From the NCBI GenBank assembly GCA_018262705.1, contig JADFDQ010000005.1:62001-126000 (forward strand): DNA of 64,000 nucleotides, in the 5' to 3' direction. The notes beneath the pieces were generated by a model that saw only the letters and a program-made list of their open reading frames with translations, made no database searches and was not told the origin of the DNA. Numbering within the stretch: the stretch's first letter is position 1; each line of letters begins with the position of its first letter. Made by a program: the position numbers and the translations under genes. Positions 20,584-48,803 of the stretch are shown in pieces. This stretch comes from Xanthomonas sp. (GTDB lineage: Bacteria > Pseudomonadota > Gammaproteobacteria > Xanthomonadales > Xanthomonadaceae).

Positions 20584-20585
20584 CC

Positions 20586-21833
20586 ATGTTCGGCCTCCAG
20601 GACGGCAACAACTACTACGCCAGCTGCGAGCGCGTGTTCGATCCGCGATTGCGCGGCAAGCCCGTGGTCGTGTTGTCGAACAACGACGGGTGCGCCATTG
20701 CGCGCAGCCAGGAAGCCAAACGGCTGGGCGTGAAGATGGGCCAGCCCATCCACGAGGTGCCACCCGAGGTGCGCCGCCAGCTGGCCATCAAGTCGGCCAA
20801 CTTCGGCCTGTATGGCGACCTGTCGGCTCGGATCGTGGGGATCCTGCGCGACCTCATGCCCTCGGTCGAAATCTATTCGATCGACGAGAACTTTTTCCGC
20901 TTCCCGGAGACCGGGTGTCGCATCGAAGTCGCGCACGAAGCCCGCGCGCGCATCGAGCGTTGGATCGGCATCCCCAACTGCATCGGTATCGGCCCCACCA
21001 AGACCCTGGCCAAGATGGCCAACAAGATCGCCAAGGGCGGCGCCGGCATCGTAGACCTGGCCGATCCGCATGTCCGCGAAGCGCACCTTGCGAAATTCCC
21101 CGTGGAAGATGTCTGGGGCGTAGGTCGCAAGTTCGCCGCGCGCTTGGGCGCCGAAGGCATCCTGACCGCAGGCGACCTGGTCGCCGCCGATGCGGAAACG
21201 CTGCGCTCACGCTATGGCGTGGTGCTGGCCAGGACGCAGCGCGAATTACAGGGCGTCCCTTGCTCGGACCTGGTCGAAACGGAACCCGATCGCCAGCAAA
21301 TCGTGTCCTCCCGATCCTTCGGACGAGAGTGCTGGGAGCTTGAGGATGTCCAGGAAGCCGTGGCCACCTTCGCGTCCATTGCAGCGGAGAAGCTACGCGG
21401 CCGCTCGCTCATGTGCTCGGGCGTGTGGGTCTGGCTCAACACCAACCCCTTCAAGCCCGACGCCAAGCAATACCACCCGTCGAAAGCCTTCAACCTGATC
21501 GCGCCCAGCTGCGATACACGCGAGATCTCGATGGTGGCTAGGGCGCTGGCCAAGGCGATGTATCGCAAGGGCTACCGCTACAAGAAAGCGGGCGTGGGCC
21601 TGCTCGACCTGACGCACGGGGACATGCACCAGGGCGATCTGTTCGCCGGCATCGATCCCCGAAGCCGCGCGATGATGGATGTGCTGGACCGTGTCAACGC
21701 GAAGTTTGGCCGCGGCACCATGGGGCTTGCGGCCAGTGCGCTGGCCTCCCGCAGGCCCGTGTGGGCCATGAACCAGAAGCAGCTGTCCCCTGCTTACACT
21801 TCGCGGTGGGATCAGCTGCTCCGGGTGCGGTAG
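20586..21833 (+). CDS. umuC: UmuC, error-prone DNA polymerase V catalytic subunit
   Basis: The product is 415 aa, a Y-family polymerase. The start GLQDGNNYYASCERVFDPRL holds the first metal-binding Asp and the steric-gate tyrosine region. VVLSNNDGCAIARSQEAKRL and YSIDENFF (usually SIDEAF) supply the second acidic pair. A little-finger domain follows, with RSFGRECWELEDV. The length is normal (E. coli 422 aa). Carriage of umuDC is common on conjugative elements. The product acts in translesion synthesis and mutagenesis. Confidence 0.95.
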   Translation: MFGLQDGNNYYASCERVFDPRLRGKPVVVLSNNDGCAIARSQEAKRLGVKMGQPIHEVPPEVRRQLAIKSANFGLYGDLSARIVGILRDLMPSVEIYSIDENFFRFPETGCRIEVAHEARARIERWIGIPNCIGIGPTKTLAKMANKIAKGGAGIVDLADPHVREAHLAKFPVEDVWGVGRKFAARLGAEGILTAGDLVAADAETLRSRYGVVLARTQRELQGVPCSDLVETEPDRQQIVSSRSFGRECWELEDVQEAVATFASIAAEKLRGRSLMCSGVWVWLNTNPFKPDAKQYHPSKAFNLIAPSCDTREISMVARALAKAMYRKGYRYKKAGVGLLDLTHGDMHQGDLFAGIDPRSRAMMDVLDRVNAKFGRGTMGLAASALASRRPVWAMNQKQLSPAYTSRWDQLLRVR

Positions 21834-23935: not shown

Positions 23936-24043
23936 GTGATCCAAACGATTGAACGAGCCGAGCGCTCTAACTACGCCCCAAAAAACCGCTTTTGCTTTTC
24001 AGCCGGCAGCGCCGGCTGTGCGTTCTTATCAGGGGGTCTCTGA
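23936..24043 (+). CDS. 35-codon leader ORF coupled to the R-M gene
   Basis: A GTG with AGGAGA upstream opens a frame of 35 residues (VIQTIERAERSNYAPKNRFC, then FSAGSAGCAFLSGGL) that ends TGATG, overlapping the R-M start codon. The DNA at 24001-24017 also forms a 7-bp hairpin (AGCCGGC, AGC, GCCGGCT). Either the peptide or the hairpin could tune expression of the enzyme. It is not similar to known C-regulators. Whether it is translated is unproven. Confidence 0.5.
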   Translation: MIQTIERAERSNYAPKNRFCFSAGSAGCAFLSGGL

Positions 24044-31120: not shown

Positions 31121-33508
31121 CTACGGCTTGAGGCATTCCTTGGCCGCTTCCTCAACCGTCGCAACATGGATCGCTGTAGGCGTTCCAGCCCTCATTTTCC
31201 ACACCGTATAGCCACCCTTGGTCGGCTTCTCCCGCAGGGCGGTCTGCTTGCCCTCGGTGATGAAGCGGGTGAGCATCTTCGTTGTGCCGTTGTCCTGAAT
31301 GTCGAAGAGCTTGCGGGCCACAGCATCGGACAGCAGGTGCGCGCCCTTTGTGTCCAGGCAATAGACCAGCTTCCCCTTCCACACGAGGAAGTCGGGCGAA
31401 AACGACGCGCTGTCGCCCTCCGACAACAGCGGGATGCGGAAACCGCCGTTGCTGGGGTTGCGATGCCAGGTGTTGCCCAACTTGTCCAGCGCATTGGCGA
31501 ACTGCAGTTCTGGCTTGTTGAAGCCCGCGTAGCGCTCATACAACCCGTTGGTGAAGATCTGTGCCTTCTTGGGCACGCGCATGGCCGGAAACACGAACGG
31601 CTTAGCAGTCTCGTAGACCAGGCTGGTGCGTTGGTAGTAGGTCGCGACGATGTCGCGCGCCAGGACCTCGGCCCAGGCATGGGCGTTGCTGTTGGCTTCC
31701 ACGCGGATGTCGAACTTCGGCGCCTGAAGGTTGACCACGGCCAGCGCACCGCGCGACCGAGCCCGGATGGCGTTGTTCACCAGCCAACGCAGGCGCACGC
31801 GGTTGGAGTGGCCACTGGTCTGCCAATCGGTATCGCCATCCTTCTTGCCCAGATCAGAGATATCCACGACCTCGGACTTCTTCTGGGCCTCGCCCAGTGC
31901 ATCCGGATCGCTTTCCTTGATCGTGGGGAATTTCGCCACCAGGTCCGCGATGGCAGCCACCGCGTCGTCCGCGTCCGCTTTCACTTCGTGCAACACAACT
32001 GAGACATCGTCCCGCGGCTCGATTTCATCGGAGCCTCCATCGCTGCCCGCATAGGACTGGACGATTTCGATGCTGGTGCCGGCCTCCTGGAGCTTGGCGC
32101 GGACGGCATCGATGGCATCGGTAAAGACATTCTTTTTGTCGACGCGCAGGAAGAAGTGCGCACTGTTCAACAACGGCGCGTCGTAGTGCGTGGCGTTATA
32201 TTGGCGCAAGACGCGACCAATGATCTGCTCGACCTTGATCTGCGAACCCATGCTCTTGTCGATATAGCCGAGATAGCAGCCCGGATCGTCCCAACCTTCC
32301 TGGAGGCCCTGGTTGAAGATGATGTGCTGAAAGTCGCCAGCCTGGAACGCGTCAAAATCGCTCTCGCCCTTCGAGAACAGGTTCACGGCATCTGGCTTGT
32401 TGCCTTCCACGAACTTGAGGTCCGCGTAGATGGCGACCTTAGCCGGATCCACGCCCTTCTCTTCGACAAGATAGCGCCAGATCTTGATGGGTGGCGCATG
32501 GCGGTGCTGGAACGGCTTGGTGTGGTCGTCCTTGTCGCCATCGTCGGTGATGTTGGTCTTGCACACATAAATAGCCTTGGGCACGAAGCCCAATGCCCTT
32601 GCCTGGATTTCACGCTCGATCAGCTTCAAGCGATCGAACAGCTCGTCCAGGGAGCGTTCCATGGGGGCCGTGCTGCCGTCAAACTGGATGGCCGTCTTGA
32701 TCAGCTCGGCATTGACCACGGCCTCGCTGTCGACCAAGGTGATCGCGAACGCATCGGCGTCCGGCACGCCATCCTTGTTCAGCGCCGCGAGCTTGTCGAA
32801 TGCCTCAACGGCGTCGTCTACATCCGAAGCATCGCTTACCCAGGTCTTGAGCGGATGAAGCACCTTCTCATTGAACTGCACCGGCAACTTCATAGTCGCG
32901 CTGGCCAGCAGGTAAGCCTCCGGCTCCAGCTCCGCAAGGATCGCCGTCTGCTGATCCGAAAGATTGTGGCCTTCGTCGTAGACGATGATCAGGGGACGCC
33001 GCACGCCGCCAGCATCACGCTCGATCAATCGCTCCCACGGCGACTTGTCGCCGAATAGGTCTTGGTCGCGCTTGTAGATATTCAGCGCACCGTCCGCCTG
33101 CTCCTTGTTGTTGAACAGACCGGTGGTGGCCATCACGATCAACGGCGTGGAGCCATCCGAAATGGCCGAAGGCTCCAACTGCCCCGCACGAATGACGCGG
33201 AAGCCTTCTACGATCCCCGAATACTTTCCGCCACTTGAAAAATTGTTGTAGGTCTGCTGGACAACAGACTTGGCCTTGGACATCCAGAAGATGATCGGCT
33301 CGGCGCTCATGTGCATGCGCATGAGCGCGACCGCTTCGGCAAGGATCGGCGTCTTGCCCGCCCCAGTTATTGCCGACAGTGCCTGGTAATAAGGGCGCGG
33401 CAACTTGCCCTTGTAAGTCGGGCGGTATGGGTGATGCGCGAAAAACGCATAGCGATTTGCGATCTGGCTTGCGGCCTTTACCTGGAAGGGTTTGAGCTCA
33501 AGCTGCAT
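31121..33508 (-). CDS. res: Type III restriction enzyme, Res subunit
   Basis: The product is 795 aa. An SF2 helicase core is clear: Walker A ITGAGKT at about residue 48, DEGH box (IVYDEGHN), SAT motif (LLASATM) and motif VI GRVLRQY. The C-terminus holds a PD-(D/E)XK nuclease site (SPDFLVWKGKLVYCLDTKG). In type III systems Res translocates on DNA and cuts only when joined to Mod. The ATG at 33508 overlaps the mod stop by 11 bp. An in-frame extension further upstream is antisense-like and rejected. Confidence 0.9.
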   Translation of the reverse strand: MQLELKPFQVKAASQIANRYAFFAHHPYRPTYKGKLPRPYYQALSAITGAGKTPILAEAVALMRMHMSAEPIIFWMSKAKSVVQQTYNNFSSGGKYSGIVEGFRVIRAGQLEPSAISDGSTPLIVMATTGLFNNKEQADGALNIYKRDQDLFGDKSPWERLIERDAGGVRRPLIIVYDEGHNLSDQQTAILAELEPEAYLLASATMKLPVQFNEKVLHPLKTWVSDASDVDDAVEAFDKLAALNKDGVPDADAFAITLVDSEAVVNAELIKTAIQFDGSTAPMERSLDELFDRLKLIEREIQARALGFVPKAIYVCKTNITDDGDKDDHTKPFQHRHAPPIKIWRYLVEEKGVDPAKVAIYADLKFVEGNKPDAVNLFSKGESDFDAFQAGDFQHIIFNQGLQEGWDDPGCYLGYIDKSMGSQIKVEQIIGRVLRQYNATHYDAPLLNSAHFFLRVDKKNVFTDAIDAVRAKLQEAGTSIEIVQSYAGSDGGSDEIEPRDDVSVVLHEVKADADDAVAAIADLVAKFPTIKESDPDALGEAQKKSEVVDISDLGKKDGDTDWQTSGHSNRVRLRWLVNNAIRARSRGALAVVNLQAPKFDIRVEANSNAHAWAEVLARDIVATYYQRTSLVYETAKPFVFPAMRVPKKAQIFTNGLYERYAGFNKPELQFANALDKLGNTWHRNPSNGGFRIPLLSEGDSASFSPDFLVWKGKLVYCLDTKGAHLLSDAVARKLFDIQDNGTTKMLTRFITEGKQTALREKPTKGGYTVWKMRAGTPTAIHVATVEEAAKECLKP

Positions 33509-35441
33509 CCGTGCCGCCCTCGTTGTTGTAGGCGTCGGCCCTGGCATTGAAGCCGATGTGCTCCAGCACCTTGTCCGGGATCTGGTAGAACTCGATGTCC
33601 GTGCCGGTATACGGCGCAAGCGCCGCATAGACATGGTATCGGCCGACCAAACCATTGGCCTCGGCTTCCTTGACGATTTCCTTGTAGACGGCCCTGGTCA
33701 GCGTGGATGGCGCCTCGGGTGCCGTCCACACCAGATAAAAACCCTCGTTGCGATTGTTCACGGCGAACAGGTGCTTGTGTTCGCCTGCCGGTAGGCGCCG
33801 TAGGTAGGACTTGGCCTTGTCGTTGCGGTCCCAGTAACTGGCCAGCAACAGATCCATCATTTCCTCGCGCGCCAGGGCATTCACCGCTCTGGCATCGACC
33901 TTCTCCCGCTTCAAGGTCAGGAAGCGGAGGCCACCTCCCAGCGGCTCGCGCTTGCCGGACTTCCAGTTGCCCGTGATGACACGCTTCAAGCGATCGGCGG
34001 TCAGGGTCTTGGCGTAGTGGTCGCCCTTCGCATCATTGCCTTGCTCGACAAGAATGAAACGACGCTTGGCATCCTGTTCTTTGTTCAGTTCAAGAACGGC
34101 ATGACCTGTCGTGCCAGAACCCGCGAACGGATCCAGCACGATGCCATCGCGACGGCACCAGATTTGAATGATCTTTTTGATCAGGGCGAGCGGCTTGACG
34201 GTTTCGAAGTTATGGCCCTTGCCAACCACGGCATCAAGCTCTTCAACACCGTCTCGTGAGCGGCCGCTCATTGTCCGCAGCCACGAAACAGCGTCCACGC
34301 GCGGCGGTGCCTCGTCGTCATCCAGCCAGAATGTGGTAGGGACACTTCCCTGCCTCACCAAGCTCTTGTAAACCTTTCGAACGGGCTTTTGGTGGCCATC
34401 AACACCCCAATACAGATAAGGCCAGTTGAGGTCATCTAGGCGCTTTGTCGCGATGCCTTTGGCACGCTTAAGAAGCTTTTCCCTCTGGGACTTGTTCGCG
34501 GTGCCCCACCCCTTGAGCGACAGGGCCTTACCGCGGCCATCGCCGATATCCAGGTCCTCGTATTCCACGCCCCATTCTTCGAGCCACTTCTTCATCTTGG
34601 CTCGCTTGTTCGCCCAGTGGCGTTCTCCAGGATCGTGAAACTCACCGGTGAACGGCGACTGGATCGCATAGTTGGCAAGCTTGCTTGCCCCCTTGCCGGT
34701 AAGATCGCCCTGTTTCCAGTCCGATAGCGTGTCGTTGTCGATGTTGCCGAAACGAGCATCGGCCAGCGTAGACCGCTCGATCAGCCCAGTTTTGGCAATG
34801 TCCGCGGACTTGGCATAGACCAGCACATATTCCGTGGTCAGAGACAACTTCGACGACTGGTTTTTTGGGGTCGTCTTCTGCCAGTTGATGATGCCGATGC
34901 GATTTTCTTCGTGGAAAATCTCGTCCATCAGCATCCCTAAACGATAGAGCTCACGGTGGTCAATGCAGATCGCAATGACACCACCGGGCTTGAGCATCTC
35001 GCGCATCATCCACAACCGTGGGGTCATGAAGCGCAGCCACTTGCTATGGCGCGACCCATCATCCTTGGCTACGAGCTCCCCCAGGTCCGGATCGTTCGGA
35101 TCCTTGTCCCACTTGTCGTTGTAGCGGAAATCTTCGCCCGTGTTGTAGGGCGGATCGGTGAGCACCAGATCGACCTGGCCGCGATACTTGTAGAGCGTGA
35201 CCATGGCCGACAGGTTCTCGCCATCCCACAGCTCGTTGGCGACCTGTTCTTCTTCGGAGCCAACCGACGCGCGCTTGTTGATCTCGCACATCTTCGGCTT
35301 GACCTGACGGACGATCTGCCAAGGGGCCGTTCGGCCCGTGTAATTCAAATTGATGCCGTCCTTGCCGGCGTCCGCGCGCTCGGCGTCTTGCTCCATCAGC
35401 AGCCGGATCAACGCGGCCCTCGGCATCTCTTCGTATTTCAT
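33498..35441 (-). CDS. mod: Type III DNA methyltransferase, Mod subunit
   Basis: The product is 647 aa. The methyltransferase is of the beta class, as the order is DPPYNTG (residues 96-102) before the SAM site DPFAGSGTTGHAV (about 440). The region between holds the target recognition domain. The Mod subunit adds N6-methyladenine to the recognition site. The ATG at 35441 (MKYEEM) was chosen over an upstream extension. No simple-sequence tract that would phase-vary the gene was seen. It overlaps res. Confidence 0.92.
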   Translation of the reverse strand: MKYEEMPRAALIRLLMEQDAERADAGKDGINLNYTGRTAPWQIVRQVKPKMCEINKRASVGSEEEQVANELWDGENLSAMVTLYKYRGQVDLVLTDPPYNTGEDFRYNDKWDKDPNDPDLGELVAKDDGSRHSKWLRFMTPRLWMMREMLKPGGVIAICIDHRELYRLGMLMDEIFHEENRIGIINWQKTTPKNQSSKLSLTTEYVLVYAKSADIAKTGLIERSTLADARFGNIDNDTLSDWKQGDLTGKGASKLANYAIQSPFTGEFHDPGERHWANKRAKMKKWLEEWGVEYEDLDIGDGRGKALSLKGWGTANKSQREKLLKRAKGIATKRLDDLNWPYLYWGVDGHQKPVRKVYKSLVRQGSVPTTFWLDDDEAPPRVDAVSWLRTMSGRSRDGVEELDAVVGKGHNFETVKPLALIKKIIQIWCRRDGIVLDPFAGSGTTGHAVLELNKEQDAKRRFILVEQGNDAKGDHYAKTLTADRLKRVITGNWKSGKREPLGGGLRFLTLKREKVDARAVNALAREEMMDLLLASYWDRNDKAKSYLRRLPAGEHKHLFAVNNRNEGFYLVWTAPEAPSTLTRAVYKEIVKEAEANGLVGRYHVYAALAPYTGTDIEFYQIPDKVLEHIGFNARADAYNNEGGTDAA

Positions 35442-35753
35442 CAGCTCGCCTATCTCGTATCGGCGGCACAAGGCCGCAAAAAATGGCCCAGGGGCCAAGG
35501 GTGTTGCGTGGGACGGCCAGCCGCAGGCGCGACTGCCGGTGAGCCACCGTAGTCGTCCGCGGTCTCACCGGCTGCGCCGGGTCGTGCCCGCCCCTTTGGG
35601 TAGCGTCTCAGACCCTCGCCTGAAAGGCACTACCCCACAGTCGATTGTTGCAACGGCGCACCGGATAGGCAAGAAATCAGGCGCAGAAGCCGCAATAGCG
35701 CAATGACGCCCTTCCCGGGCGCCACGGTGTGCGCAGGACGACCGAAGGCTGGG
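35442..35753. other. Intergenic with a 9-bp hairpin
   Basis: No gene recognised. GCCGGTGAG at 35535-35543 pairs with CTCACCGGC at 35564-35572. No T-run follows, so it is not an obvious terminator. Confidence 0.5.
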
Positions 35754-38028: not shown

Positions 38029-38742
38029 CTACAGTCGCATCCCGCGACGCTTGGGTAGTTGGGCCTGTTCCATGGCCACTTGACTCAAGACGGCCGGATC
38101 GTTCAAGTCGGGCAGCTGGGCGGTGTCGCGCTCCAGCCGCTGACGCAGGTCTTCGGCCTGGCGGGCCAGAAACGGTCTCAACATGTCCTCGTTGCCGCGC
38201 CAAGTGGCCATCTGAAATGGCGTCACGCCATCAGTGTCCTGCGCGTCGATATTGGCCCCCGCCTCGATCAGTAGCCGGCAGCATTCCGGTCTTACGCTAG
38301 TGGCAACCCAGTGCAATGGAGTTCGTCCATCGTCATCCACTGCATCGACATTTGCACCAGCCTTGATCAATGCCGCAGTCAACTCCTGGTTGCTGGAAGC
38401 AAAGTGCAGAGCAGTGCGTCCAGCATCATCGGCTGCAGAGATATCTGCGCCGGCGTCAATCAATAGCTGGGCCACATCCGGCCATCGTTGTCCTACAGCA
38501 ATCATGAGCGCAGTTTCATCATGTCGCGATGTGGCCGCATTGATATCGGCGCCTTCCTTGATCAATAGGCTCGCCACTTCCTTGCGACCAAGCTTGGCCG
38601 CCAGCTGAAGCGGCGACAACCCGTCTTCATTAATGTCGTTGACCTTGGCGCCCGCGCCCAGAGCGGCGTGAAGTTCGTGGGTGTGCCCGCTGAAAACAGC
38701 ATCGAAAATCCGCTGGTGTGGCGGATTGAGTGTGGTCTTCAT
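38029..38742 (-). CDS. Ankyrin-repeat protein with PKRRGMRL tail
   Basis: The product is 237 aa. At least five ankyrin repeats are seen (for example GLSPLQLAAKLGRKEVASLL, AGRTALHFASSNQELTAALI and GRTPLHWVATSVRPECCRLL). The C-terminus LPDLNDPAVLSQVAMEQAQL then PKRRGMRL is almost identical to that of the ankyrin protein at 39976-40767. There is no signal peptide. Its ATG overlaps the stop of the M15 peptidase gene, so they are translated together. A conserved tail after variable repeats suggests a localisation or secretion signal, which is an inference. Confidence 0.8.
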   Translation of the reverse strand: MKTTLNPPHQRIFDAVFSGHTHELHAALGAGAKVNDINEDGLSPLQLAAKLGRKEVASLLIKEGADINAATSRHDETALMIAVGQRWPDVAQLLIDAGADISAADDAGRTALHFASSNQELTAALIKAGANVDAVDDDGRTPLHWVATSVRPECCRLLIEAGANIDAQDTDGVTPFQMATWRGNEDMLRPFLARQAEDLRQRLERDTAQLPDLNDPAVLSQVAMEQAQLPKRRGMRL

Positions 38743-39512
38743 TGCTGGTCCATGGCCATACGCATGTTCAGGGAAGCGAAATATTGGGGCGCCGAGCGGA
38801 TCGCGGCCTGGCATTCAACCCGCTTCTCGACATGGCCGTAGTCGCGCGGGTTCGCCCAGGCGCCGCCCCACTCCAGGCCTTGTGCTACCACAAGCTCGCC
38901 GAACAGATGGTAGCCTCGCATTACCCAGGGATCGCTCATGTCGTATTGCGGCGCACCATCGCGGAACACGACGCTATCCACTGCCAGCCCGTATTGGTGG
39001 CAGGAACGCATGGCTCCCACCGTGGTAATCCCTCCGCCCAGTGCCAGCAGCTGCGCCTGGCGCTGCGGCGATCGAAAGGTTTCCACTGGCATCACTGTGT
39101 AGCCCTGGGCGCGCATCTGCGCGTAGACCTGGTTCAGCGAGGCCAGCAGGCCTGGATCTACATAGTCCAGGGCGTCCAGCCGTCGAAGGATGGACGCCAT
39201 GTCCCGCTGCTCTCGCAGGGCACGGCGGGCGGCGGCTCGTGCTTGCCGGCGTTGCTCGTTGGCTTTAGCGGCGCCCGCCTGGTAGGTCCAGGTGGGCATT
39301 TCACAAGCGATGGCCTGACCCAGGATCGGCGAGACGATGCTGGGATCCTGGATCGGTGTGCTGACCATGGGACTAGCCAGAGCAGCGCCTGAGGTTGCGA
39401 TCGGCGAGACGATGCTGGGATCCTGGATCGGTGTGCTGACCATGGGACTAGCCAGAGCAGCGCCTGAGGTTGCGGCCAGCAACAATGCCATGATGAAAGT
39501 CGGTCTATGCAT
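38739..39512 (-). CDS. Secreted M15-type peptidase
   Basis: The product is 257 aa. The signal peptide MHRPTFIMALLLAATSGAAL is followed by a polar segment that was duplicated (25 residues twice). The peptidase domain shows ETFRSPQRQAQLLA, then SCHQYGLAVDSVVF (H-x(3)-G-x-A-x-D, metal ligands) and DYGHVE (last His). This is the zinc D-Ala-D-Ala carboxypeptidase / endolysin-like M15 fold, acting on peptidoglycan in the periplasm. Such enzymes help conjugation machinery pass the cell wall. GGAGGAGCTT precedes the ATG. Confidence 0.75.
   Translation of the reverse strand: MHRPTFIMALLLAATSGAALASPMVSTPIQDPSIVSPIATSGAALASPMVSTPIQDPSIVSPILGQAIACEMPTWTYQAGAAKANEQRRQARAAARRALREQRDMASILRRLDALDYVDPGLLASLNQVYAQMRAQGYTVMPVETFRSPQRQAQLLALGGGITTVGAMRSCHQYGLAVDSVVFRDGAPQYDMSDPWVMRGYHLFGELVVAQGLEWGGAWANPRDYGHVEKRVECQAAIRSAPQYFASLNMRMAMDQQ
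39324..39473. repeat. Two 75-bp tandem direct repeats
   Basis: The unit starting GATCGGCGAGACGATGCTGG lies at 39324-39398 and again at 39399-39473, in frame within the signal peptide region of the M15 gene. The copies are identical in the part read. Confidence 0.9.
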
Positions 39513-39529
39513 AAGCTCCTCCATATCTC

Positions 39530-39558
39530 CATGCAAACCTATTTAGCGCGTTTGTCAA
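39530..39558 (-). promoter_or_regulatory. Type B promoter (TTGACA-N17-TGCATG)
   Basis: TTGACA at 39558-39553 and TGCATG at 39535-39530 with 17-bp spacing, directly before the peptidase and ankyrin genes. Confidence 0.55.
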
Positions 39559-39571
39559 GAACACGGGCACA

Positions 39572-39979
39572 CTAAAGCCTTGAAGAGCGTGGCTTGGCCG
39601 TGGCCGGCGCGGTCTTCTTGAGTAGCGACTGCAACAGATTATGGGAGACGCGTTTGCGGTCAATGTCCTGCGCCCATGCCTCGACCTCTGGCGCGAAGGG
39701 GCCATGGACAGACTGATGGATCCGTTCGAAATCGGCGCCATGGTCGCGCAGCACCCACACGACCCGCTCAAGCCGTTCTACGAATGAACGATGCGCGCGG
39801 TCAGTGCTAAAGCTCACGCCGCCAAGGCGGATGAGGTTGAACTGAAGCATGGCATTGGCCAGGGGTGTGCAGTCGAAGTCATCCAGTGCATCGACCTGGG
39901 CGCCAGACTTGAGCAAGCGCCGACATTCTTCCGGTTGGGCGTGGGATGCGGCCAGGTGAAGCAGTGATTGAGCCTTCAT
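39572..39979 (-). CDS. Short ankyrin-repeat protein
   Basis: The product is 135 aa. One clear ankyrin repeat pair is seen (SLLHLAASHAQPEECRRLLK, then GAQVDALDDFDCTPLANAML). The rest is a helical Arg-rich region with an R-rich tail (TAKPRSSRL). It overlaps the ankyrin gene at 39976 by 4 bp (ATGA). It lacks the PKRRGMRL tail, although its last residues are also basic. Confidence 0.7.
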   Translation of the reverse strand: MKAQSLLHLAASHAQPEECRRLLKSGAQVDALDDFDCTPLANAMLQFNLIRLGGVSFSTDRAHRSFVERLERVVWVLRDHGADFERIHQSVHGPFAPEVEAWAQDIDRKRVSHNLLQSLLKKTAPATAKPRSSRL

Positions 39980-40767
39980 AGCCTCATCCCGCGGCGCTTG
40001 GGGTGCTGCTCATGCTGTTGTGCGACCTGGTCTAAGGTGGCCGGGTCGTTTAGGTCGGGAAATGTAGGGGCTGGTGGGGTGTTGGCTTCTAACCTCTCAG
40101 CAAGACGATAGGCGTCAAACACGGCCTTGGTCGCAGCAGGGTCGCAAGGTCTTTTGTCTCCTCTAATGCAAGGCCGCCCCACCGAGATCAACTCTTCAGG
40201 GGTGTTTCCGTTGATGGTTTCGGCATTGATGTTTGCTCCTCGTTCCAACAGCAGTTGACACGCCTCGGCGCGTCCGCCATGTGCTGCATGATGTAGCGGC
40301 GTCCACCGCTTTCTATCCTGACTGTCCAAGTCTGCTCCCGCCCCGATAAGTTCGCGGCATAGTCCTACCTCACCCTTACCAGCCGCAAAAATCAACGCTG
40401 TGTTGTCGAATGGATCCCGAGCATTTACATCAGCCCCGTGCTCGATCAACAGGCTGCAGATCGCGACATTACCATTAGATGCTGCCTCGATAAGCGCTGT
40501 AGCGTTATTGCGAACTCGGGCATCAATTTTTGCGCCCCGATCGATAAACAATTTGCACAGTTCCAGACTACCCCTGCCAGCCGCATCCGCCAAAACGAAG
40601 TGGCACTTGGAAGAAGCGTTCACATTTGCGCCCTTATCCAAATACCTGACGCAATCTTGATAACAAATGGCTTGCTTCTTTACATCAAGATGATCGTTAA
40701 ATCTGGAAACTGCTAAATGCAAATAATCGGTATATTTTTTCTTAGTGAATTCGAACTCAGGCTCCAT
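39976..40767 (-). CDS. Ankyrin-repeat protein with PKRRGMRL tail
   Basis: The product is 263 aa. About five ankyrin repeats are visible (for example GSLELCKLFIDRGAKIDARV, NATALIEAASNGNVAICSLL and RWTPLHHAAHGGRAEACQLL). The C-terminal FPDLNDPATLDQVAQQHEQH then PKRRGMRL matches the tail of the protein at 38029 in 28 residues. Cytoplasmic by sequence. It lies 60 bp from the primase-helicase gene, which is oriented the same way. Confidence 0.8.
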   Translation of the reverse strand: MEPEFEFTKKKYTDYLHLAVSRFNDHLDVKKQAICYQDCVRYLDKGANVNASSKCHFVLADAAGRGSLELCKLFIDRGAKIDARVRNNATALIEAASNGNVAICSLLIEHGADVNARDPFDNTALIFAAGKGEVGLCRELIGAGADLDSQDRKRWTPLHHAAHGGRAEACQLLLERGANINAETINGNTPEELISVGRPCIRGDKRPCDPAATKAVFDAYRLAERLEANTPPAPTFPDLNDPATLDQVAQQHEQHPKRRGMRL

Positions 40768-40827: not shown

Positions 40828-42735
40828 TCACTTGAAGGCTCCCGGCAATTCTTCCGCCACCTCGTTCAAGGCTTTACCGACTTCAGCTTGATCGCCCCGC
40901 TCGTTGATGCGGATCCGGTAGCACACCTTTCCATCGCGCTCCACGCGAATACGGTCATTGATGAACCCGGACTTGGTCAGCGTTGACAGCCACTCCCCCT
41001 GCGCCAGGAGGTTCCTCGGATTGAACCCGTTTTCTGCGATCCGCTTCTCAACCCACCCTTTGTATTGGAGGTAGATCTCGTCGGTCGTCATGACCTCTTC
41101 AGTGTTCGTTGCAACCATGTGGGCACTGGCCCAGGTGGTGGCGAGTTCTGTCAGAGGACCAAGGATTTCAATCTCGTAAAGGTCTGTCTGTTCACCATTG
41201 ATCCGGCGGTTGACCTTGCGATCGGGCTTCACCAGGCCGGCCTCGGCCATTCCACGCCAGAACTGACGGCTGGTCAGTTTGTCGCTTTCGGTGAAGCCTT
41301 GAGCCGCACACCAGCTGCTGTAGTGTTTGTAGACCTCCTGCAGCGGCATCCAGTGCTCGGCCTGGCGCACCACGCGCATGTCGTTGGCCCAAGCGCGCAC
41401 GCTGTCGCAGTTGTTGCGGGCCAGCTGCTTGGCTTGGCGTGCCGCTTCCGGCAGCTCACGATCGGAGAGGGCTCGGCCACGCGCGATGATTCGGCGGGCG
41501 CCTTCAAGCATCCAATCAAGGATCTGCCTGCCTTCCTTCTCCAGCAGGACTTTGTGGAAGTCCTCCATCCTTTCATCCTCGGGGATTTCCACCCCCCAAT
41601 AGACGACCACAAGGCGACGCCAGACACCGTTGGACTTGTCGCGAACGAACGGCGCGCTATTGGAGGTGATCAGCCATTTGGCCCGCGAGTGGTAGGAGGC
41701 CAATGCCTTCTCGTTCTTCCGGTCAATGCCGATACCGTTGCCCGAGACCAAGGTCTTGAAGCGGCCCTCGGCCCACCGTTCGCATTCAACCTCGTCTACC
41801 AGGATCAGGCTGGCGCCAATCAGCGGTTCCAGGCTGAAACGATCGCCCAGCGTCTCCAGGTTCAAGCGAACCGACTGCCGATGCATGGCTTCCACCAGCT
41901 CTGCCATCGTCGACTTGCCCGACCCCGCGGCCCCATACCACCAGGCCGCTTGCGAGTAATTGCCAGGCAGCAGGGTCATTCCACACTGCTCCTGGAGAAG
42001 ATCGCGCACTGCGGGGTCAGGCTGGGCACGGGCCAGGAATTTTGCGAACAGGGAGTTGGCTGGAAGTTCACGCCACCGGTAGCGCCGGTTTACCTTGGCG
42101 CCCGTCTCGATCTTCACCGCGTGGGTCATGCCAAGCGCAGGATCTGGCGCCAAGGCCCGGAAGCCTTTCCCTTTAGGCAGAACCTCGATGTAAGCGTCGG
42201 CGCACGGCACGATGGCGCGCTTGGCATTCATTTCAGGCAGGGGATTTTGGCGACGCAGACGGCTGGTCGCATAGGCCCAGCACTGGGCCGACTTGCCCTG
42301 CACCGCCGCATGCGGTGCATAGCTCTCCAACCAATCCGAAGCCACCAGTTCGCCGACTTCCGTATTGATGGCCTTCCAGTAGGTGCCGGTCCACTTGTGG
42401 ATAACGGCACCAGTGGCATCACTGGCTTGGCAGGCCCAGGCGCCTCTCTTTCCCGAGACCATGTGCCGGGCAAAAATACAGTCCAACGATGGCGGCTTGA
42501 GCTGGCCCGTGCGCGTGTCGATGCGGTGGGTAAGCAGCCAATCCTTCTCCAGCTGTTCGTCCTTGGCCATGCGAGCTTCCATCAGGCTGCTCACTGATGC
42601 TGCATTGGCATTGTTGTCCGCAGCAGGCTCCTCCGCCTGAGGCTTCTTGCGCCTCTGCGACTTCCCTGGAGTAGCGGCACCGTTAGTCGGAGACTTGACA
42701 GCCTCCCCCTCCTGGGCCAAGTTATTCGTAGTCAT
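40828..42735 (-). CDS. P4-type primase/SF3 helicase, replication protein of the element
   Basis: The product is 635 aa. The central SF3 helicase domain has Walker A WYGAAGSGKSTM, Walker B ILVDEVECE and the sensor KWLITSNSAPFVRDKSNGVW, as in D5/P4-alpha replicative helicases. The C-terminal third holds several winged-helix-like segments. A DnaG-type primase motif was not identified with certainty in the N-terminal part. Start at MTTNNL (42735). With an RHH gene and an iteron array directly upstream, it probably initiates autonomous replication of the element. Confidence 0.8.
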   Translation of the reverse strand: MTTNNLAQEGEAVKSPTNGAATPGKSQRRKKPQAEEPAADNNANAASVSSLMEARMAKDEQLEKDWLLTHRIDTRTGQLKPPSLDCIFARHMVSGKRGAWACQASDATGAVIHKWTGTYWKAINTEVGELVASDWLESYAPHAAVQGKSAQCWAYATSRLRRQNPLPEMNAKRAIVPCADAYIEVLPKGKGFRALAPDPALGMTHAVKIETGAKVNRRYRWRELPANSLFAKFLARAQPDPAVRDLLQEQCGMTLLPGNYSQAAWWYGAAGSGKSTMAELVEAMHRQSVRLNLETLGDRFSLEPLIGASLILVDEVECERWAEGRFKTLVSGNGIGIDRKNEKALASYHSRAKWLITSNSAPFVRDKSNGVWRRLVVVYWGVEIPEDERMEDFHKVLLEKEGRQILDWMLEGARRIIARGRALSDRELPEAARQAKQLARNNCDSVRAWANDMRVVRQAEHWMPLQEVYKHYSSWCAAQGFTESDKLTSRQFWRGMAEAGLVKPDRKVNRRINGEQTDLYEIEILGPLTELATTWASAHMVATNTEEVMTTDEIYLQYKGWVEKRIAENGFNPRNLLAQGEWLSTLTKSGFINDRIRVERDGKVCYRIRINERGDQAEVGKALNEVAEELPGAFK

Positions 42736-42787
42736 CGTTGTATCTCCAATCGCAATCCCTCGCCCTGGCCGGCGGGGGATTGTTCGT

Positions 42788-42964
42788 TTACGGGTTCTGC
42801 GGCAGCACCTGATCCAGGATCCGACGCAGCTTGTCGCTGGCTGAAATGTCCGACTCGTTCGCTGCACGCCGCAGTCGATCAGCCAATCCTTGCTCCATGC
42901 GCACACGCAATAGCGCTGACTTCCGTGGCTTCACCGGTTCGGCCTTGGTCTGCTGCAAATTCAT
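42788..42964 (-). CDS. Small RHH repressor, replication control
   Basis: The product is 58 aa: a basic N-terminal strand (KSALLRVRMEQGLADRLRRA) and two helices (NESDISASDKLRRILDQVL), the Arc/MetJ/CopG fold. GGAGATATCGAG precedes the ATG at 42964. It is just upstream of the primase-helicase gene and behind a promoter that includes a perfect 10-bp inverted repeat. A role in autorepression or plasmid copy control is likely but inferred. Confidence 0.65.
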   Translation of the reverse strand: MNLQQTKAEPVKPRKSALLRVRMEQGLADRLRRAANESDISASDKLRRILDQVLPQNP

Positions 42965-42985
42965 CTCGATATCTCCGTTGTTTAC

Positions 42986-43007
42986 TGTGTCCACATTTGT
43001 GGACACA
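42986..43007. promoter_or_regulatory. 22-bp palindrome, candidate RHH operator
   Basis: TGTGTCCACA, TT, TGTGGACACA: two perfect 10-bp arms, located between the promoter and the RHH start codon. Confidence 0.6.
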
Positions 43008-43012
43008 CCTTC

Positions 43013-43040
43013 AACCAAACATAAATCAGGCTTCTGTCAA
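43013..43040 (-). promoter_or_regulatory. Promoter of the RHH/primase-helicase genes
   Basis: TTGACA at 43040-43035 with TTGGTT at 43018-43013 (16-bp spacing) or TGGTTG at 17 bp. The palindrome lies 5 bp beyond. Confidence 0.45.
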
Positions 43041-43077
43041 CCCTGTCCGGAGAATTCTCTCCACGGCTTGGCGTTGA

Positions 43078-43418
43078 CTGCTGGTCTTCGTTCTACAGGA
43101 GGAAGACCAGCAGAAGACCAGCACCAAAGACCAGCAGGCTTATGTTGTTGTTTTAATAGGGCTTTGCAGCTCTGGAATCCCCACTGCTGGTCTGCTGGTC
43201 TTTGATTTCGTGTTTTTCAAAAATTCAAGGTAGGAAATGTGAAGCTCATTGCAAAATGAGTTGCATCGAGAAGAATGCAAAACGAAGACCAGCAGGCCAG
43301 CAACGCCTGGCTTACGGATTTATTTCCAACAGTGGCAATTACTTGCAGTGCTGGTCGTCCCTGCTGGTCTTCTGCTGGTCTTTCCCAAAATTGCTCTGAT
43401 TGAAGGGAAGACCAGCAG
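43078..43418. repeat. Iteron array (about 11 copies of AAGACCAGCAG), candidate oriV
   Basis: Copies on the plus strand: 43103-43113, 43114-43124 (last base differs), 43127-43137, 43285-43295, 43408-43418. Copies in the opposite direction (CTGCTGGTCTT): 43078-43088, 43184-43194 (last base differs), 43192-43202, 43361-43371, 43372-43382. A degenerate one lies near 43351. The array occupies 341 bp, holds an AT-rich stretch between 43141 and 43260, and is directly beside the RHH and primase-helicase genes, which fits an origin of replication. Confidence 0.75.
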
Positions 43419-43425
43419 ACCTTGA

Positions 43426-43782
43426 CTAATTCCCTTTTACTGGACGTTTTTGGACTGCTGATCGCATGTCGACGACATCCACAAGATCGACGATGAAATG
43501 CAGTCCGTTATCCACACTGTGCGTATCGAAGCAGCGCTGGATCATCAGATGCTTGGAAGGGTTTCCAGGATCGCGAAGGTTGTTCCAACGAATGGCACAA
43601 CCATGCCTGAAGTCAGGATTAGTGTTGGCCTTGACCACCATCTGAAAGCCAAGAAAATCGATGCTTCCCTTGCCAACCAGTTGACTGGCAACGCGTTCGG
43701 CTTCAGTCGAATAATCGATGGTGAGGGGAATGATGCTGAAGCCCACGATGGGCTTGTTGCGCTGCTTCTTCTTGCTGATCAT
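43426..43782 (-). CDS. Hypothetical protein beside the iteron array
   Basis: The product is 118 aa from the ATG at 43782 (GGAGAAGAGCA upstream). The frame is beta-strand rich (FSIIPLTIDYSTEAERVASQ, then LGFQMVVKANTNPDFRHGC). No HTH or enzyme motif was seen. The last codons end 8 bp from the final iteron. It could be a replication accessory or copy-control protein, which is a guess from position. Confidence 0.5.
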   Translation of the reverse strand: MISKKKQRNKPIVGFSIIPLTIDYSTEAERVASQLVGKGSIDFLGFQMVVKANTNPDFRHGCAIRWNNLRDPGNPSKHLMIQRCFDTHSVDNGLHFIVDLVDVVDMRSAVQKRPVKGN

Positions 43783-43910
43783 TGCTCTTCTCCACTTGCT
43801 CGGCGGGATGCCGAGTTCGTGAGAAAAATTTTGAGCAACAGGCCCGGAACCTCGCCCCATCAGCGACTGCGGTCAACTTGGGATATCACGGGACAACTTG
43901 GAGACTGAGC

Positions 43911-43960: not shown

Positions 43961-44548
43961 CTACAACACGCTCCATCTGCGCTTCCCCGTATGAGTCGCC
44001 GTGTTTTCTTCCAGCTGCAGGGTCAACATGTTGCTGTCGATCTGTGCCATAGCGTTGCGCATTCCGGCTTCGAGCTCGTCGCGATACGGGCGCATGGCGC
44101 CGGCACTGGCCCAAGGTTCGGCTAGGGCGTCCAGCAGGGTCGCGACGATGGTATCGCTGTCCAGGAGTTCTTCCAGGGGCATTCCTAGGGCGCTGCCTTC
44201 AATGGCTCCGCCAGCGTTCGTTCGCCAGGGCTCGACCAGACTTGCGAAGTCGAAGCCACCGACGCTCATTCGCGACGAAACGAAGATATCCAGTTCCTGC
44301 TTCCGATATTTGTGGGGCTGGGTCGTGCGATCGACACCTTCCGCAACCACCGGCTCCAGAAAAGGCGGCCCCATGCCCTTGACCTTGCGCCACCGAGCCA
44401 GCGTTTTCGTAGACACTCCCAGATAGATCGCCGCAATGCTGCTGTTGAACAGCGCACCCGATGGCATCCTTTCCAAGTGCTCGCGAAGTGCCGCCAGCTT
44501 GCGCAGGCGGGCCTCGTTGCTTGTGTCCTCCAGCATCTGCTCTGCCAT
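43961..44548 (-). CDS. Excisionase-like HTH protein
   Basis: The product is 195 aa. An AlpA/Xis-type HTH is seen at about residues 33-60 (LFNSSIAAIYLGVSTKTLAR, then WRKVKGMGPPF). It is longer than usual excisionases (70-90 aa) because of a C-terminal helical extension of about 120 residues. The gene follows the integrase stop by 3 bp, so it is coexpressed and probably directs excision. The DNA-binding role is inferred. Confidence 0.65.
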   Translation of the reverse strand: MAEQMLEDTSNEARLRKLAALREHLERMPSGALFNSSIAAIYLGVSTKTLARWRKVKGMGPPFLEPVVAEGVDRTTQPHKYRKQELDIFVSSRMSVGGFDFASLVEPWRTNAGGAIEGSALGMPLEELLDSDTIVATLLDALAEPWASAGAMRPYRDELEAGMRNAMAQIDSNMLTLQLEENTATHTGKRRWSVL

Positions 44549-44551
44549 GCC

Positions 44552-46072
44552 CTACCCCTCCTTACCGGGCAAGGATAGCAAAGCGGTTGCGACCAGAGGA
44601 GCGGTCTCCAGCATGGCCCTCTCGATCCTCTCCATGGCCTCCACCACGCGCGGCTCTTCGGGCTTGGTGTAGCGCTCGGTGGGATCGGATAGGGACCTGT
44701 GGTTGAGCAAGCGCTTGACAATGGCGTAGCTCGTGATGCTCTCGGCAACTGAGCCGAAAGTCCGGCGCAGATCGTGCGTCCGCAGGATCTCGATGCCAGC
44801 CGTCTTGCGCAGCCCAGTCAGGATCGCCTTGCTGTCCAGGTAGTGGCCCTGGACTGCTCGGCTCGACCTGGCGGGGAACACCCACTTGCCTTGCTGCTTG
44901 GGCACCTTGATCTTGCCCTCCCGCCGCTGGACCAGGATCTCGTAGGCCCCCGGGGCGATCGGCAATTCCAGGTCGCTGTGGTTCTTCGTGTCGTGGAAGT
45001 GGACGACCCGGTTCTCCAGGTCCACCCACGAGGCCGACTTGGCCTGCTCGGCCGTGATTTTGTCGCGCCACATCAGGGGGGCCGCCTCGCCACGACGGGT
45101 GCCCCACAGCAGCGTGAGCAGGAGATAGTCGCAGGCGGTCTTGTAGTTCTCGATCTTGCGACGCTCCCACAGCACATTGAGGAAGCGGCCCAGGGAGCCG
45201 TCCTGGATCGACAGCGGGTTGCGGGCCGCGCTCTTGGCATACGCCTTCTCAAGTTCTATGCGATCCCGGAACCGCTCCTGCGTTTTCAGCAGGTCGAATG
45301 GATTGCGGGCAATGGAAGGGTCGCGGCCCTCCATCGAAGCGGTGGCCACTTCCATGTCGATGACAAACCGCGTCGCGGCACTGGCCCAACGAAAGGTTTG
45401 CTCTGCCGCGGTGCGGATACCCTCCCCTTTCGCAGCCTTCTTGGGCACCCGTGCGGGCTTGTTCCTGAGGTTGGGATGCGGGGGCCTGGGCGAGTTGGCC
45501 AGCGCATCGAACGCATCGACGATCGCCTTGCCATTCCTGGTCAGCCAGCCCAAGGTCTTGTTCAGCAGCTTCACTTGATCCCGGTCCAGTCGACGCATGG
45601 CCAGGTCGTAGTTCTTGAGGCTGCTTTCCTTCGCAGGCCGCTGGCGATTGACCAGGTGGTTGCGATACAGCGCCATGGCCTGGGCCAGGGTCATTTTTGC
45701 TGCGCTGACTTCCTCACCCTTCGCCTTGGCCTTCGCCAGGGTGTTGGGGTTCTCGCCCGTGTCCTCGATCTGCAGCGCCAACTCCTTGGCACGGCGCCTG
45801 GCAGCATCGAGGCTGTCGAAGTCCGACACATTGCCGACCTTGACCTTGACCACCTTCTTGCCGGCTCGGCGCTGCAGGACGAAAGTCAGCCGCTTGCCCA
45901 CCTTGACCCCGAAGCCGGTAGGGGCGTCGCCGTTGGTATCGAAGACGATGTAGGGCGAACGGTCGTCTTCTGGTCTAGGCTTCCATTCCAGCGTCCCGTT
46001 AGGCTTGAAGACGGGCTTCACATCGACGCGAAGCCGGTCCCGGATCAGCGTGAGCGTAAGGTTGGTTTTCAT
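44552..46072 (-). CDS. Tyrosine-type site-specific integrase
   Basis: The product is 506 aa. Catalytic residues seen: Arg in LLWGTRRGEAAPL, His433 and Arg436 in THDLRRTF, His458 in LLNHRS and Tyr468 in TERYTKP. Preceding segments carry an arm-binding-like N-terminus (SPYIVFDTNGDAP) and a core-binding helix domain (ESSLKNYDLAMRRLDRDQVK). The start at MKTNLTLTLIRD was chosen; an upstream in-frame start lies in the palindromic region. It transcribes away from mutS and marks the end of the element. Confidence 0.9.
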   Translation of the reverse strand: MKTNLTLTLIRDRLRVDVKPVFKPNGTLEWKPRPEDDRSPYIVFDTNGDAPTGFGVKVGKRLTFVLQRRAGKKVVKVKVGNVSDFDSLDAARRRAKELALQIEDTGENPNTLAKAKAKGEEVSAAKMTLAQAMALYRNHLVNRQRPAKESSLKNYDLAMRRLDRDQVKLLNKTLGWLTRNGKAIVDAFDALANSPRPPHPNLRNKPARVPKKAAKGEGIRTAAEQTFRWASAATRFVIDMEVATASMEGRDPSIARNPFDLLKTQERFRDRIELEKAYAKSAARNPLSIQDGSLGRFLNVLWERRKIENYKTACDYLLLTLLWGTRRGEAAPLMWRDKITAEQAKSASWVDLENRVVHFHDTKNHSDLELPIAPGAYEILVQRREGKIKVPKQQGKWVFPARSSRAVQGHYLDSKAILTGLRKTAGIEILRTHDLRRTFGSVAESITSYAIVKRLLNHRSLSDPTERYTKPEEPRVVEAMERIERAMLETAPLVATALLSLPGKEG

Positions 46073-46196
46073 TTGTAGCCCGGTTTTCGGTGCCCTGAGC
46101 TGCACCCTACCGCACAAGGCTACAACTGGGCTACACCGAACCGTCCAAAGCTGGGATAAGCTGGGGTCAGATGTCCCAAGTTATATGACACCGTAG
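46073..46196. other. Likely attachment-site region
   Basis: It lies between the integrase start and mutS. GGCTACA occurs at 46118-46124 and 46129-46135, and inverted (TGTAGCC) at 46074-46080, which resemble integrase arm sites. AAGCTGGG is repeated near 46148 and 46158. The crossover point cannot be placed without the other junction. Confidence 0.4.
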
Positions 46197-48803
46197 ATGG
46201 CTAACTCTTTGAACAATCTAGATAAAGCGAAACAAGCCAAAGAGATGGCCGAGCACACCCCGCTGATGAAGCAGTACTTCTCCGCCAAGGCGGAGCATCC
46301 GGAGGTGTTGCTGTTTTTCCGGATGGGCGATTTCTACGAGCTGTTTTATGACGATGCGCGCAAGGCGGCGCGGTTGCTGGACATCACCCTGACCCAGCGC
46401 GGCAGTTCTGCGGGGCAGCCAATTCCGATGGCCGGCGTGCCCTATCACGCGGCCGAAGGCTATCTGGCGCGCTTGGTGGCGCTGGGCGAATCGGTGGCCA
46501 TTTGCGAGCAGATCGGCGACCCAGCGCTGGCCAAAGGCTTGGTCGAACGCAAAGTGGTGCGCATCGTCACGCCCGGTACCGTGACGGACGAGGCGCTGCT
46601 GGACGAACGCCGCGACACGCTGTTGCTGGCCATTTCACGCGGGAAGCATGGCTACGGGTTGGCGTGGGCGGATCTGTCCAGTGGTCGCTTGCGTGCGAAC
46701 GAAGTGGCGGGTGAAGACGCGCTGGAAGCCGAGCTCGCCCGCCTGCAACCGGCAGAAACCTTGCTTGCCGATGAAGACGGTTGGCCGGTGTGCGCACTGG
46801 AAGCACGCGGCCTGCGCCGACGTGCACCGTGGCTGTTCGATGCCGATTCCGGCCGCCGCCAACTGCTGCAATTTTTTGGCGTGCACGACCTCACCGCATT
46901 TGGCATTGAAGACCGCCCGCTGGCAATCGCCGCCGCCGCCGCGCTGCTTGGCTATATCGAAGAAACCCAAAAGCAGCGCCTGCCGCATCTGCGCAGCATT
47001 GCGCTAGAAACCAGCGACGACGCCATCGCGATGAACGCGGCCACGCGCCGGCACTTGGAGCTGGATTCGCGTGTAGATGGCGATGTGAAAGCAACGCTGC
47101 TGGGCGTGCTGGACTCCACCATTTCGCCGATGGGTGGCCGCCTGTTGCGGCGCTGGCTGCACCGCCCGCTGCGTGACCGCCGCACGCTGGGGCAGCGTCA
47201 CCATGCGGTGCAAACCCTGATCGAACATCGCGCTGAAAACGCGTTGCGTGAGTCGTTCCGCAGCTTGGGCGATATGGAGCGCATTTTGTCGCGGGTCGCC
47301 CTGCGCAGCGCGCGCCCGCGTGACCTGTCCACCTTGCGCGATGGCTTGGCGCTGCTGCCGACATTGCGCGGCTTGCTGGCGCCGCTGGATTCACCGCGCT
47401 TGCAAAGCCTGCACGCGCAACTGGGCGAGTTCGATGCCACCGCGGCCTTCCTGCAAGCGGCCATCGTTGCGCAACCCCCACTGCTGGCACGCGATGGCGG
47501 CGTGATTGCCGACGGCTTTGATGCCGAACTCGACGAGCTGCGCCAGCTGTTCACCCATGCCGACCAATTCCTGATTGATCTGGAACAGCGCGAGCGCGCA
47601 TCCAGCGGCATTCCCACCCTAAAAGTGGGCTACAACCGCGTGCACGGCTACTTCATCGAAATCAGCAAGGGGCAGGCCGACAAAGCGCCGGTGCACTACA
47701 CGCGGCGGCAAACCCTGACCGGTGCCGAGCGCTATATCACCGAAGAATTGAAACAATTCGAAGACAAAGTGCTGTCCGCACGCGAGCGTTCGCTGTCGCG
47801 TGAAAAACTGCTGTACGACGGCGTGCTGGATCATTTGAACGCGCAACTGGAACCACTGCGCGCCTGTGCCGGCGCACTCAGCGAGCTTGACGTGCTGGCC
47901 AGTTTTGCCGAACGTGCCAACACGTTGGATTGGGCGATGCCGCAGCTGCGTGACGCCCCCGGCATTGCCATCGAACGCGGCCGTCACCCGGTGGTGGAAG
48001 CGCTGCGCGATGCGCCGTTTGAGCCGAATGATTTGCGCTTCGACGACGCTGCACGCATGTACGTCATCACCGGCCCGAACATGGGCGGCAAATCCACCTT
48101 CATGCGCCAGAACGCGCTGATTGTGCTGCTGGCCTGCATCGGCAGTTTTGTGCCGGCATCCAAAGCCATCATCGGCCCGATCGACCGCATTTTGACCCGC
48201 ATCGGCGCGGGGGATGATCTGGCGCGCGGGCAGTCCACCTTCATGGTGGAAATGAGCGAAACCGCCTACATCCTGCACCACGCCACCGATCAATCACTGG
48301 TGTTGATGGATGAAATCGGGCGCGGCACTTCAACCTATGACGGCCTGGCACTGGCCGACGCGGTAGCGCGCCAGCTCGCCGCCAGCAACCGCAGCTACAC
48401 GCTATTTGCCACGCATTATTTTGAACTCACCGCGCTGGCCGAACCCGGCAGCGGCATTGCCAATTTGCACTTGGATGCGGTGGAGCATGGCGATGCACTG
48501 GTCTTTATGCACGCGGTGAAACCCGGCCCTGCCAACCGCAGTTTTGGCCTGCAAGTGGCGGCGCTGGCTGGCCTGCCCAAAGCCGCGTTGCAACAGGCGC
48601 GGGCACGGCTGGCCGAACTGGAAGCATCCAGCCGCAACGCCCCGCATGTACCGATGAGCGCGCCCGCGCTGGACGCGCCGCAGCAGTTTGGTTTGTTTGC
48701 GCCCAGCTCTGCGGCCTTGGATGCACTGGCCTCGATTGATCCCGATGAGCTGAGCCCCAAGCAAGCGCTGGAAGCGTTGTATCGGCTCAAGGCGCTGTCA
48801 TGA
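46197..48803 (+). CDS. mutS: MutS, DNA mismatch-binding ATPase
   Basis: The product is 868 aa and near full length. The mismatch-binding FYE motif is [10 protein letters not shown]. The ATPase has Walker [14 protein letters not shown] and Walker [16 protein letters not shown]. The ordinary family N-terminus ([12 protein letters not shown]) begins at codon 17. The first 16 codons ([16 protein letters not shown]) are AT-rich and unlike the rest, and no ribosome site is seen before the ATG at 46197. A second in-frame ATG at 46245 lies next to the conserved start. The mobile element may have provided the present 5' end. Confidence 0.95.

Follow-up and report, generated by a model that had tools for sequence, protein, structure and literature searches.

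We analysed a 64,000-nucleotide stretch of a Xanthomonas sp. genome (assembly GCA_018262705.1, contig JADFDQ010000005.1, positions 62,001 to 126,000; hereafter the window, whose numbering we use unless a contig or locus is named) and found, at 43078-43418, a dyad-symmetric array of short repeats (iterons) close to a gene for a P4-type helicase, within an island of about 58.7 kb that has integrated into the 5' end of the mismatch-repair gene mutS. The array is probably, at about 0.78, the replication origin of this probably mobilizable island, to which the helicase would bind through its C-terminal winged helix and on which it would assemble as two facing rings.

A mirror-ordered array around an AT-rich gap

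The array occupies both strands and comprises twelve sites with a CCAGCA core, six per strand, of which eight match AAGACCAGCAG exactly, two with one mismatch, one with two and one with three. When up to two mismatches are allowed, AAGACCAGCAG has 34 matches in the window, 11 of them inside 43078-43418, against a mean of 17.4 and a maximum of 29 in shuffled sequence, and nowhere else in the window do 341 bp contain more than four CCAGCA cores. A uniform 7-mer scan scored the array segment at 49.9 and the other 20 window segments at no more than 15.2; genome-wide there are 14 exact copies of the 11-mer AAGACCAGCAG, eight in the array and the remaining six scattered. A preliminary description of this DNA, made from the letters alone, had thus located the two-orientation array correctly, and its estimate of about eleven copies, five or six each way, was close (11 at up to two mismatches), the exact figure being twelve by core.

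On the + strand the sites run < >>> << [gap] >> <<< >, an order that is its own mirror image (1-3-2-2-3-1), with start-to-start spacings of 25, 11, 13, 57, 8, 93, 8, 55, 13, 11 and 36. The copies that had been described as following or facing each other do so, but the symmetry that unites all of them in a single array had been missed. Between the left inner doublet (43184-43202, - strand) and the right one (43285-43303, + strand), each made of two sites 8 bp apart, the second site on the right being the weakest with its three mismatches, lies a central gap of 82 bp (43203-43284). This spacer is 65% AT in an island of roughly 60% GC, has a similar length in three relatives with the same repeat type, and is the probable unwinding region.

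The array is bordered by a ribbon-helix-helix (RHH)-like gene (42788-42964, - strand) on one side and by an open reading frame (ORF; 43426-43860, - strand) on the other, and it is overlapped by two + strand frames (42831-43205 and 43202-43399) that are mechanical ORF calls only. Ordinary coding sequence, which the preliminary description had named as an explanation that would undo its own, appears unlikely to be the source of the repeats, because in a relative the sites are kept while the spacers have diverged. A consensus scan of 42600-43500 yielded no promoter.

Conserved geometry and changing repeat units

Searches with the helicase returned 15 matching genomes among 395 of the family (E≤1e-40; 17 places, counting that of the window), 12 among 398 of the order (E≤1e-60), six of these new, and three among 369 of the class, all of them already found and none outside the order; the three samples overlap. 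Together with L010 (Dyella), added from a genome-contig scan, the set comprises 24 helicase loci including the window (W). None of 24 same-genus genomes examined holds a close copy, four having distant P4-type matches at 26-29% identity. In plasmid and phage collections every match (94 and 136 records) was distant, with identity below 60% and none covering 80% of the protein, and two helicase scans of viral contigs gave no relative.

All twelve sites recur, in the order and spacing of the window, in L102 (the same locus as L009, from an uncultured Xanthomonadaceae metagenome-assembled genome), whose helicase is 65% identical to that of the window. With gaps counted as differences, the sites of the two arrays are identical at 116 of 126 positions (92%) and the spacers at 86 of 269 (32%). 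Across W, L102, L052 and L103 the distances are nearly constant (8 within doublets, 93-97 from doublet to doublet across the gap, 52-54 from triplet to doublet) although the spacers have lost similarity; two sites of the L052 array have a mismatch in the core.

When one uniform procedure was applied to all 24 loci, a dense two-direction array was found near the helicase in 16 of them, with scores of 22.4-59.6. Controls reached at most 13.2 in 24 shuffles, 14.8 at 23 mutS loci, 14.1 at seven distant P4-like helicase loci and 20.8 at six other loci of the same genome, the strongest of the latter having seven of its eight copies in one direction; the control loci, at about 3-4 kb, are shorter than the test stretches, while the shuffles are not. 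Symmetry was significant (P≤0.021 against shuffled gaps and orientations) in 13 of the 24 loci (W, L102, L052, L103, L106, L108, L109, L111, L114, L116, L130, L132 and L134), several of which share a unit and are not independent, so that they form six or seven groups by unit. This test supersedes an earlier, hand-set one in which 11 of 14 loci reached P≤0.039. The eleven loci that failed include four with arrays (L110, P 0.083; L113, P 0.186; L115, P 0.890; L135, P 0.268) and three with scores at control level (L104, L105 and L010). The other four, L107 (18.8, at a contig edge and one-directional), L131 (17.9), L133 (17.7) and L112 (15.2), score above the shuffle and mutS controls and below the strongest own-genome control, with no significant symmetry. 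L132 has a score at control level, yet it is symmetric (8/9, P 0.003). In most arrays two inner pairs of sites face outwards, one on each side of the central gap, and the array lies 3' of the helicase in L134, L135 and probably L132, where it is weak, and 5' of it elsewhere.

The repeat unit differs between lineages while this layout persists. Within the helicase family, repeat types include the GACCAGCAG type and the CCCGGAC type: the unit is CCAGCAG/GACCAGC in W, L102, L052 and L103, ACCAGCA (with the CCAGCA core kept) in L106, L108 and L109, GGCAGCA in L110, CCCGGAC in L111 and L130, AGTAGGG in L113, CCCTGTC in L114, CGTGCAG in L115, GCGTCCA in L116, GTGCAAC/TGTGCAA in L134 and L135, and TCGGACA in L132. 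The central gap of L130 is not AT-rich (GC 0.60) and contains an alternating GC/CA run. The C terminus of the helicase diverges faster than its core, with 69% versus 96% between W and L102 and 45% versus 84% between W and L103.

An order-wide pattern search for AAGACCAGCAG matched four of 398 genomes: the window's own, G250, G183 and G073. The tandem units of G183 and G073 run in a single direction in what are, by eye, low-complexity coding runs, and were set aside. Two such elements reside in G250, which is only a hint that different types can coexist in one genome, because the units of both share the CCAGCA core. Among 19 pattern matches in viral contigs, mostly one-direction runs, no mirror order was seen by eye.

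The island and its genes

The island occupies the window from the left end up to about 46.26 kb, and its span of about 58.7 kb follows from two attachment repeats, AGCACACCCCGCTGATG within mutS at 46252-46268 and a copy identical at 16 of 17 positions, outside the window, at C20:49591-49607. By eye, the left copy directly follows sequence that matches the mutS upstream region and first codons of G017, and the first codons and upstream region of mutS as it now stands (46197-48803, + strand) are supplied by the island. Also by eye, the native start persists at the left end (C20:49500-49620) as a short truncated ORF, and the island-supplied start at 46197-46268 leaves the mutS frame open. Expression of mutS may depend on the island. 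Synteny could not place the island end, since the M20 peptidase gene next to mutS in the closest relative is on another contig here; the match to that gene on L078 (G000:C23) has one internal TGA. Nine of the 24 loci, window included, adjoin mutS, and the element family has inserted repeatedly at the 5' end of mutS, because the gene lies beside an integrase in eight of the 23 other loci (L052, L102, L103, L104, L105, L109, L113 and L133).

The tyrosine integrase of the island (44552-46117, - strand), whose relatives also adjoin mutS, has an arm-binding domain, and the opposite end of the island carries a MOBF (TrwC) relaxase, an ArdC-like protein and a TrwB-like coupling protein. With its integrase, two attachment repeats and relaxase, it has the features of an integrative mobilizable element, in agreement with the earlier proposal of an integrated element. 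It looks mobilizable rather than self-conjugative, because the VirB4 model PF03135, a single model that does not reach every type of type IV secretion system, has no match in the genome. Family models, run on part of the island ORFs (PHROGs on five proteins), recognised no phage-satellite genes (rpr, capsid interference or terS).

The candidate initiator (40828-42735, - strand) is a 635-aa P4-type (Primase_Cterm/DUF5906) helicase with a superfamily 3 helicase domain and predicted tandem C-terminal winged helices. It scores 57.9 against DUF5906 (cut-off 27.6) and 107.8 bits against TIGR01613, just below the cut-off of 108.7, and matches DNA primase families of PHROGs (best E 5.5e-45). All profile matches start at residue 115 or later and are confined to the helicase portions of the profiles; no primase model, TOPRIM included, matched, and the N-terminal part is without a match. 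Of the P4-type primase-helicase first described, the helicase half is therefore recovered and the primase half is not. A full-length structure model was too poor for use (mean model confidence, pLDDT, 39.6). The model of the C terminus had no Foldseek match in the PDB at E≤0.001; a second-look aligner matched its predicted fold to that of the P4 origin-binding domain 1ka8, and viral models gave five matches at E≤0.001, some of them unnamed, phage primases and helicases following lower in the list. Several ankyrin-repeat genes lie just downstream of the helicase (38029-40767), and ankyrin-like matches occur near the L009 and L010 helicases as well.

The RHH-like protein (58 aa) matches Pfam RHH_10 at 21.9 bits, under the model cut-off of 27, and RHH-like ORFs were judged by eye to occupy the same place in relatives; the neighbour named in the preliminary description is thus upheld, if below threshold. 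Directly before its start lies a perfect inverted repeat, TGTGTCCACA-2-TGTGGACACA (42986-43007), which differs in sequence from the array unit, has a similar counterpart at the equivalent place in L052 and L103, and is the probable RHH operator. The RHH protein is most likely an autorepressor of the RHH-helicase operon. On the other side of the array, the 144-aa ORF at 43426-43860 has no family match, and it is followed by a helix-turn-helix gene for a probable DNA-binding protein of 195 aa (43961-44548, - strand; phrog_4745, a weak match at E 9.9e-05).

Elsewhere the island carries overlapping ORFs for the methylase and the ResIII-type enzyme of a Type III restriction-modification pair (31121-35498), a large N6-adenine methylase-like ORF of low GC (about 0.49-0.52; 23992-26694) that is probably a separate acquisition, a UmuC-type polymerase and a SRAP-domain gene (20421-21833 and 16968-17942), an ORF resembling part of an outer membrane usher protein (12662-14419) and, left of the window, a YadA-like trimeric autotransporter ORF (L084:16725-18686; C20:56725-58686).

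Proposed origin function and known systems

We propose that the C-terminal winged helix of the helicase binds the array repeats, that the mirror-image half-arrays would position two helicase rings face to face on either side of the AT-rich gap, that this gap would open and the rings thread on, and that host enzymes would prime and copy the excised circle. Three observations weigh against this proposal. The similarity of repeats correlates about equally with that of the helicase core, the C terminus and the RHH protein; L111 shares its unit with L130 and not with the closer L112; and, although the repeats are kept in the closest relatives sharing the helicase, as the preliminary description had anticipated, L104 and L105 are without such an array despite helicase cores that are 75-76% identical.

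Alternatively, the array could serve the RHH protein in regulation or partition, with its dimers coating the repeats of both orientations and either repressing the operon or making the array a centromere; we regard this as unlikely. Some RHH proteins do bind repeats in both directions, in the window the RHH gene adjoins the array, most relatives examined have an RHH-like ORF (by eye) ahead of the helicase, and repeat similarity follows RHH similarity about as closely as it follows helicase similarity. However, the protein has a perfect palindrome of its own, unlike the array in sequence; the array is on the far side of the helicase in L134, L135 and, probably, L132; L104 and L105 have no detected array although their RHH strand region is much as in the window; and the subset of island ORFs scanned contains no ParA-like match.

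That the array is instead an arm-type or accessory excision site for the integrase or a helper DNA-binding protein is very improbable: the integrase, with its arm-binding domain, and a probable DNA-binding gene are adjacent, but 2.8 kb separate the array from the attachment repeat, a different repeat, CATTTGTAGCCC, occurs with its reverse near both island ends, some arrays lie 3' of the helicase, and L104 and L105, with a related integrase next to mutS, have no array. An origin of transfer for the MOBF relaxase has equally slight odds, since, although the island encodes this relaxase and a coupling protein and array and relaxase gene would be about 3-6 kb apart in the circular form, such origins do not usually consist of many mirror-ordered repeats around an AT-rich gap, and relaxase homologues were found in only two of the 23 other stretches, most of them too short to tell (L130, with an array, and L131, without a clear one). 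A satellite origin of the RepA_N type, as in PLE, was set aside, since excerpts of PMC7145576 describe another initiator family and direct repeats.

If the array is indeed the origin, mutS-inserted, relaxase-bearing islands with a stricter mirror form would tie phage satellites and mobilizable islands together through their replicons, and fixed geometry with changing units would offer a natural series for comparing changes in the specificity of origin-binding domains and the placement of two helicase rings. More tentatively, and at somewhat less than even odds, self-replicating mobilizable islands of the Xanthomonadales may share a mirror-symmetric origin for loading two facing helicase rings, whose letters change with the initiator while the geometry is kept, giving many origin-initiator pairs that possibly do not cross-recognise, so that different types could share a chromosome; this would be the first bacterial replicon with such a layout outside the phage-inducible chromosomal islands (PICIs). 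The open-licence papers searched contained no account of the mutS island family or of a mirror-symmetric iteron origin.

Iterons differ between PICIs. As described in excerpts of two papers, origins of PICIs, including the Staphylococcus aureus pathogenicity islands (SaPIs), combine a self-loading helicase (of Primase_Cterm type in SaPI5) beside short iterons with an AT-rich region flanked by two iteron sets (PMC6092414, PMC7581432), a layout that, according to the excerpted 2018 paper, occurs in no other known bacterial replicon (PMC6092414). The window likewise has 6+6 sites around an 82-bp, 65% AT gap beside a Primase_Cterm helicase, and the plasmid-origin pattern first proposed is accordingly better described as origin-like in the manner of SaPIs, PICIs and P4 than as a generic plasmid origin. 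It differs in that the array lies 5' of the RHH-helicase pair and not immediately 3' of rep, in its clear 1-3-2-2-3-1 dyad order, in having no recognised primase, and in its host, a MOBF-bearing island of about 58.7 kb whose scanned ORFs include no recognised phage-satellite gene.

Phage P4 has two separate cis regions (ori1 and crr), whereas the window has one array. P4 alpha binds its origin repeats by a winged helix, according to the excerpted PMC4234260. The window protein resembles alpha in its P4-type helicase and in the predicted fold match of its C terminus to 1ka8, but has no recognised TOPRIM primase domain and faces other repeats. Cch2 of SCCmec, a Primase_Cterm helicase of an integrated non-phage element, binds short repeats close to the gene that encodes it (PMC7581432), as the window's helicase, also in an integrated non-phage element and near short repeats, might do; the excerpted text describes no mirror-ordered array for Cch2 (PMC7581432). 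The window also shares a repressor-type gene ahead of the replication gene with pRN1, an archaeal plasmid with a fused primase and, in contrast to the window, an origin formed by a 3' stem-loop without iterons. The orf56 product of pRN1 is a CopG-like RHH protein. In excerpts of PMC4234260 a transcriptional repressor gene precedes, in one operon, orf904 for a replication protein with a helicase and a C-terminal winged helix. By layout and initiator type, the array is thus best regarded as a variant of the P4/PICI kind of origin, an analogy that does not make the island itself a PICI.
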